Positions 49,716 through 63,064 of a stretch of 64,000 bases of DNA are shown here, in pieces. The translations under genes and the position numbers were made by a program. The notes under the pieces were generated by a model that did not search any database, was not told where the DNA came from, and saw only the letters and a program-made list of their open reading frames with translations. This DNA comes from Candidatus Zhuqueibacterota bacterium (GTDB lineage Bacteria > Zhuqueibacterota > Zhuqueibacteria > Oceanimicrobiales > Oceanimicrobiaceae). Location of the stretch: positions 1 through 64,000 of the forward strand of contig JAJDAD010000024.1 in NCBI GenBank assembly GCA_029262055.1, read 5' to 3'. How positions within the stretch are numbered: position 1 is the stretch's first letter; each line of letters begins with the position of its first letter.

Positions 49716-49801
49716 CCCGGCGGCCTCTTCTTGCAAGTTAGGCTCTGTCTAAGTAAAACAGATCGCCCTACATCTTATAAAAAGGAAAGGATGAGCAGAA
49801 A

Positions 49802-50143
49802 ATGAAAGTAGACTGGTACTATCACCGCAACGGCTGAACCACCTGCGGGAGAACGCAAGAGTTTCTTGCGAAGGAAAAGGTTGAGGTAGAAGAGCAGGTG
49901 AGCGCATCAAAAAAGCTTCGGTTTTCCGACGGGCTTGCATTGCTTGACAGGGCGGATCATCTTTATTGGAGCAAAGGAAAGAAGGCCGGTTATTTCGACT
50001 TAACGCGCGTCAAGCCGGACGAGGAAGAGTTGCGGAAAATGTTGCTAGGCCCAACCGGCAACCTGAGATCACCCACCGTTCTGAAGGGCAGAACATTGCT
50101 CGTCGGCTTTAACCAGGACCAGTACAGCGAGGTCTTTGGTTAG
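49802..50143 (+). CDS. ArsC/Spx-like thiol-redox selenoprotein (in-frame TGA read as selenocysteine)
   Basis: A 113-residue protein if the TGA at 49835-49837 is read as selenocysteine (U). The start MKVDWYYHRNG-U-TTCGRTQEFL matches the thioredoxin-fold ArsC/YffB/Spx family (COG1393), whose redox motif is CxxC; here it is U12-T-T-C15. The frame continues without another stop through the family's C-terminal region (LRSPTVLKGRTLLVGFNQDQY), with the cis-proline in the SPT motif. A SECIS-like hairpin follows the TGA. The ATG has AAAGGA about 10 bases upstream. Without recoding, only an N-terminally truncated frame from 49898 would remain. Sense-codon mutation or sequencing error is the alternative. 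The substrate is unknown. Confidence 0.85.
49854..49870 (+). promoter_or_regulatory. putative bacterial SECIS element
   Basis: A perfect 6-bp stem (CGCAAG 49854-49859 with CTTGCG 49865-49870) closing the 5-base loop AGTTT, whose second base is G. The loop begins 22 bases after the in-frame TGA. Bacterial SECIS elements lie directly downstream of the UGA and carry a guanine near the start of a small apical loop, so size and distance both fit. Confidence 0.7.
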
Positions 50144-61375: not shown

Positions 61376-61476
61376 CGACCGTCAGGCGTTACCGAACCAT
61401 CCGCAAGAGAGACATCATCAGCAAGAACTTATTGGTTGCGAATTTCATGAGAAAACCATAAACTGAATTTACCACC

Positions 61477-63064
<1,588 letters not shown>

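Follow-up and report, generated by a model that had tools for sequence, protein, structure and literature searches.

Does the in-frame TGA near the start of a short gene in the window (by which we mean the whole stretch of 64,000 nucleotides analysed here) terminate translation or is it read as selenocysteine (Sec), and, in the latter case, which signal directs the insertion and which kind of protein is made? The original prediction placed at this locus an open reading frame of 113 codons with a single TGA at codon 12, and this description of the frame was correct: on the forward strand, 49802-50143 holds 113 codons followed by TAG, and the sole in-frame interruption is the TGA at codon 12 (49835-49837), the translation running MKVDWYYHRNG-[TGA]-TTCGRTQEFLA... 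up to the TAG. The gene is flanked by an AmpD-like amidase gene and by pdxH, the latter convergent, and it is missed by the program-made list of open reading frames, in which its sole entry is an 81-amino-acid, GTG-started piece (49898-50143), as had been foreseen of an ORF caller. The features on which the argument turns are the following.

49778..49801, forward strand: purine-rich, putative ribosome-binding region AAAAGGAAAGGA, upstream of ATG 49802 (judged from the sequence)
49802..50143, forward strand: very probable selenoprotein gene, 113 residues, with Sec12 and a U-T-T-C motif, ArsC family (seleno)protein NF041106 (open reading frame, NF041106 at 123.2 bits versus a cut-off of 85, relatives)
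49835..49837, forward strand: in-frame TGA, very probably the Sec codon, residue 12, aligned with Spx C10 (translation, relatives, profile alignment)
49844..49846, forward strand: Cys15, putative resolving residue of the UxxC motif, unchanged in all 38 homologues of the alignment
49853..49870, forward strand: codons 18-23 (T-Q-E-F-L-A), with probable dual coding for peptide and SECIS, synonymous sites being nearly frozen in 71 Sec genes (codon-choice test)
49854..49870, forward strand: probable bacterial SECIS apical hairpin CGCAAG-AGTTT-CTTGCG, 7 bp counting the A-U closing pair (position, covariation, codon choice, published model)
50063..50074, forward strand: L-R-S-P segment (R89, P91), probable cis-Pro loop of the Spx/ArsC fold, with Ser replacing Arg next to Pro (profile alignment)

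The host genome (5.7 Mb, 97% complete, a draft of 114 contigs) is a Sec-decoding genome as judged by selA, selB, selC and selD, the four genes proposed as a check of the prediction and all present: selA (E 1.4e-164), selB (E 8e-100), selD (E 2.6e-108, adjoining selB) and the tRNA-Sec gene selC, which scores over the cut-off and on which ARAGORN agrees. The host's own selD (G000:C3:90805-91731, L017) is likewise interrupted in frame by a TGA, at the place where SelD classically has Sec.

Whether relatives carry TGA or a cysteine codon at the same place was examined in three samples. The search of the phylum covered 60 genomes (the host and 59 relatives) and gave matches in ten, nine besides the host; all nine phylum relatives covering the codon have TGA at the position of codon 12, and none has further interruptions except one frame-shifted draft copy. 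In that copy (L031/L127, G006:C264) the TGA and the TQEFLA segment are kept and the frame is shifted mid-gene, probably through a draft assembly error. The wide scan took one genome per species from about 85,000 species and yielded 195 relatives, and the best 80 of these 195, from many phyla, have 70 TGA, 8 TGC and 2 TGT at the Sec codon (thus ten cysteine codons), their nearest named records being candidate division KSB1 genomes. Because the wide scan used the TQEFLA pattern, so that the 80-locus sample, chosen partly by it, exaggerates the conservation of this peptide, the NCBIfam NF041106 HMM was also run over 246 planctomycete genomes; the 58 matches over the cut-off comprise 49 with TGA, 8 with Cys codons and one with Asp at the Sec position, and this sample, like the codon-choice test below, is without the TQEFLA selection bias. 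The Asp (GAC) belongs to planctomycete genome G134, which has two copies, one with Asp in place of Sec and the second Cys kept (L158, G134:C12) and one with TGA (L169, G134:C5). On a tree of 142 rows the Sec/Cys label changes 8 times, versus about 18 with shuffled labels. One locus in this tree (L097), from a metagenome-assembled contig titled Klebsiella pneumoniae, groups with a Deltaproteobacteria MAG and is probably mislabelled.

These data bear on the simplest alternative, namely that the TGA is a true stop, or arose by a sequencing error where the gene encodes Cys, and that the gene is broken or mis-assembled. That the source is an assembled draft genome of 114 contigs, and that one relative has a frame-shifted copy, would fit such a reading, but the same TGA stands in all the homologues from the phylum and recurs across dozens of assemblies made independently; it invariably occupies the redox position, no second stop accompanies it, and the hairpin co-varies. 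Because relatives carry TGA, its origin from a misread TGC or TGT is very unlikely, and the comparative data appear in effect to refute this alternative, to which we attach a negligible probability. We therefore regard 49802-50143 as very probably a selenoprotein gene translated through its TGA, whereby a gene model that annotation splits or drops is corrected and a KSB1-type genome joins the Sec users that carry the NF041106 family.

The signal directing the insertion had been predicted as a SECIS-like hairpin 22 bases after the TGA, a distance that is right for the start of the loop (22 nt) and wrong for the start of the stem (16 nt) in the hairpin at 49854-49870. The published bacterial SECIS model (PMC13188914) asks for a loop of 3-9 nt, a stem of 4-16 bp, a G within the first two loop positions, 16-37 nt from the UGA to the apical loop and a minimum free energy of at most -7.5 kcal/mol. 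The present hairpin has the loop AGTTT (G in the first two places, then U) on 6-7 bp, 22 nt between UGA and loop, and -8.5 kcal/mol for 49853-49871, although over the longer region it is not the structure of lowest energy. Set beside the consensus as drawn in Fig 2A of that source, it is alike in its A-GUU-U loop, the placement of the G, the spacing and the energy, and unlike in that its stem sequence is almost fixed within the NF041106 family. Energy folding of the single sequence over 56 nt prefers a competing structure (z -1.17, not significant), and Rfam models, scanned over the region of the gene, yielded no SECIS match and one sub-threshold SAM-SAH chance match. Single-sequence folding does not select the hairpin as the minimum; its support is comparative evidence.

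The first line of this evidence is codon choice. When the same peptide was recoded 20,000 times with the codon usage of the window, an equally strong G-bearing hairpin arose at the site in 0.065% of the recodings. Across 71 Sec genes, the codon for Leu22 is CTT in 70, versus 11% of the Leu codons elsewhere in the same genes (binomial p 1e-66, a kind of value that overstates the strength because related rows are not independent); codon 18 is ACG in 70 of the 71, versus 36% elsewhere in the same genes, codon 20 is GAG in all 71, versus 46%, and TTT and GCG are found in 66 and 61 of them. Within codons 18-23 these genes vary freely at the CAA/CAG site only, where A-U or G-U pairing is retained. 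The same 17-18 bases are thus near-fixed at synonymous sites in genomes of Acidobacteriota, Planctomycetota, Methylomirabilota, Actinomycetota and KSB1, and these dual-coding bases vanish once Cys replaces Sec.

The second line is covariation. In distant Sec genes the stem persists although the bases of both its arms have changed, as in the compensatory variants CCCAGG-AGTT-CCTGGG, GCTCAGG-AGTT-CCTGAGC and GCCGACG-AGTT-CGTCGGC, and shuffling of the arms among the class A variants lowered the paired positions from 172 of 192 to a mean of 142 (maximum 156). RNAalifold returned no structure for the mixed class-A set because the class-A registers are offset from one another by one to three bases, a problem solved by counting by register. 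A hairpin score of at least 12 at site A or site B is reached by 127 of 129 Sec rows versus 3 of 22 Cys rows, a contrast that is descriptive because both sites were chosen after the sequences had been viewed. The predicted hairpin is hence upheld by the fit to the published model, by covariation and by its loss in Cys genes, and the identification of 49854-49870 as a SECIS element is supported, with covariation as its backing.

Planctomycete Sec genes without the usual hairpin present a further case. In 16 of 17 such genes there is another hairpin that co-varies; its register is always the same, and its loop lies 51 nt after the UGA and so outside the 16-37 nt of the published model (class B; for example GACCGTC-CGTGA-GACGGTC; loci L139, L147, L148, L151, L152, L159, L161, L162, L169, L173, L174, L176, L178, L182, L184 and L185). 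Arm shuffling of this class gave 115 of 119 pairs versus a shuffled mean of 96 and a maximum of 106. We somewhat favour the reading that the SECIS has moved within one selenoprotein family, from a loop at 22 nt, inside the TQEFLA codons, to one at 51 nt after the UGA in this planctomycete subgroup. If this is true, the NF041106 family would be a natural experiment on the maximum distance between SECIS and UGA, and its two hairpin sites would make this spacing testable inside one gene family. A three-way closing stem around the class-B hairpin was considered and rejected: the sum-80 register suggested by single-sequence folds was also the best one in Cys and class-A rows, and therefore reflects codons and not structure. 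In the portions of the literature covered by our search, which was not exhaustive, we found no description of the near-fixed SECIS codons or of the displaced class-B hairpin.

As for the protein, the prediction of an ArsC/Spx type (COG1393) agrees with our results, which place it in the ArsC/Spx (COG1393/PF03960-like) superfamily. Its best match is NF041106 (ArsC_rel_Se_1, 'ArsC family (seleno)protein'), at 123.2 bits against a curated cut-off of 85 and over the full profile (1-107 of 107), and the Sec (or Cys) followed by xxC that defines the first redox position of this family is present as UTTC. By this full-length match above the cut-off, the UxxC motif and the position of Sec, the predicted product joins NCBIfam NF041106 as a new member, with nothing essential setting it apart other than its coming from a KSB1-type genome. 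The claim of a new selenoprotein must be given up, because the family is already catalogued: relevant entries of the sources concerned are the ArsC-like and distant ArsC selenoproteins of Genome Biol 2006 (PMC1794560), 'arsenate reductase 2, UxxC' of PLoS Genet 2008 (PMC2398784), the COG1393 UxxC selenoprotein of Biomolecules 2022 (PMC9312934) and, by the accession NF041106, the 'arsenate reductase-like protein, UxxC' of a 2026 AEM review (PMC13188914). The arsenate reductase selenoprotein UxxS, as it appears in the Sargasso Sea 2005 entry (PMC1088965) and under TIGR00014 in PMC13188914, shares the COG1393 superfamily and Sec as the first redox residue, and differs in having UxxS where the present product has UxxC and in belonging to the true ArsC family.

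The AlphaFold2 model built from 38 sequences is a confident one, with a pLDDT of 94.9 and a pTM of 0.87, and a fold search of the PDB with it returned Spx as the best match (E 2.3e-4, TM 0.56), then ArsC-related proteins and glutaredoxins. The profile against PDB sequences also found Spx (E 6e-10), aligning Sec12 with C10, Cys15 with C13 and R89-S90-P91 with R91-R92-P93, in accordance with the predicted placement of the TGA at the first redox cysteine. With Spx (1z3e, 6gho) and the YffB/ArsC fold proteins the product shares the fold, the position of CxxC/UxxC, and the G-x-L-R-x-P and VGF/VGY motifs; it differs from them in carrying Sec instead of Cys and Ser or Ala instead of the Arg that precedes the cis-Pro, and its model has a beta hairpin at mid-length (residues 53-66) and a shorter C-terminus.

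Could the protein then be an arsenate reductase of the glutaredoxin-coupled ArsC type in which Sec serves as nucleophile? The nearest Pfam family is ArsC (E 7e-4, below the curated cut-off) and the literature name of the family is 'arsenate reductase-like', but the NCBIfam profile search with the gene product matched NF041106, with TIGR00014 (arsC) absent from the matches up to E 10, and no arsenic-resistance genes adjoin the gene or occur among the recurring neighbours examined. Moreover, the Arg directly before the cis-Pro (Spx R92), which we take to be the arsenate-binding Arg in E. coli ArsC, is Ser or Ala in the aligned rows of the family (R-S/A-P), a replacement that speaks against its binding arsenate in the manner of ArsC. 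Arsenate reduction by this product thus seems unlikely from its sequence. An Spx-like regulator that binds the alpha CTD of RNA polymerase through a Sec-Cys switch is similarly improbable: although both profile and fold place Spx closest among solved structures, and TIGR01617 (Spx/MgsR) scores 25.9 bits, this score is far under the cut-off of 75, the TM is only 0.56, and the C-terminus is shorter (113 versus 131 residues).

The explanation that we prefer, and whose whole we hold with high confidence, is read-through with Sec12, directed by the SECIS, to give a UxxC oxidoreductase of the Spx/ArsC fold within NF041106. Sec decoding in bacteria is established and is the basis of the insertion mechanism proposed here, in which the tRNA-Sec from selC would be charged via SelA and SelD, SelB bound to the hairpin at 49854-49870 would deliver it, and the ribosome would read through codon 12 with Sec. 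The predicted product would be a thioredoxin-fold protein of 113 residues that belongs to the Spx/ArsC type and has U-x-x-C as its active site. Comparison of sequences supports the coding of Sec, the SECIS, the fold family and the family membership; the catalytic cycle is one that we infer from the UxxC motif and the fold, with Sec12 as the presumed attacking selenolate and Cys15 as the presumed resolving thiol. The two would form a selenenylsulfide, and the protein would thus act as a small thiol/selenol-disulfide oxidoreductase.

None of the other loci fetched has the genes that neighbour this one in the window (AmpD-like amidase, pdxH, BtpA family), and the operon context therefore gives no function for the window copy. 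In other genomes, a gene of the TIGR01777 family of oxidoreductases stands near the selenoprotein gene, on either side, in 12 loci from KSB1-class, acidobacterial, planctomycete and other genomes (L026, L028/L101, L029, L030, L037, L038, L042, L043, L049, L051, L056 and L086), and a ferrochelatase does so in four (L037, L069, L076 and L087). This proximity may hint at a shared pathway; the TIGR01777 gene of the host lies elsewhere, on another contig than 49802-50143.

A second ArsC/Spx-like Sec family was also seen, with UDTC or UTTC, the full RRP motif and a position near TIGR01617 (L124/L193, L125/L194, L188 and L189), in KSB1-class and planctomycete genomes and with a hairpin of its own, of the type GCAAGA-AGT-TTCTTGC. 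Elsewhere in the window, on the forward strand at 61475-61574, there is a TPP riboswitch (66.8 bits against a gathering score of 54.3).
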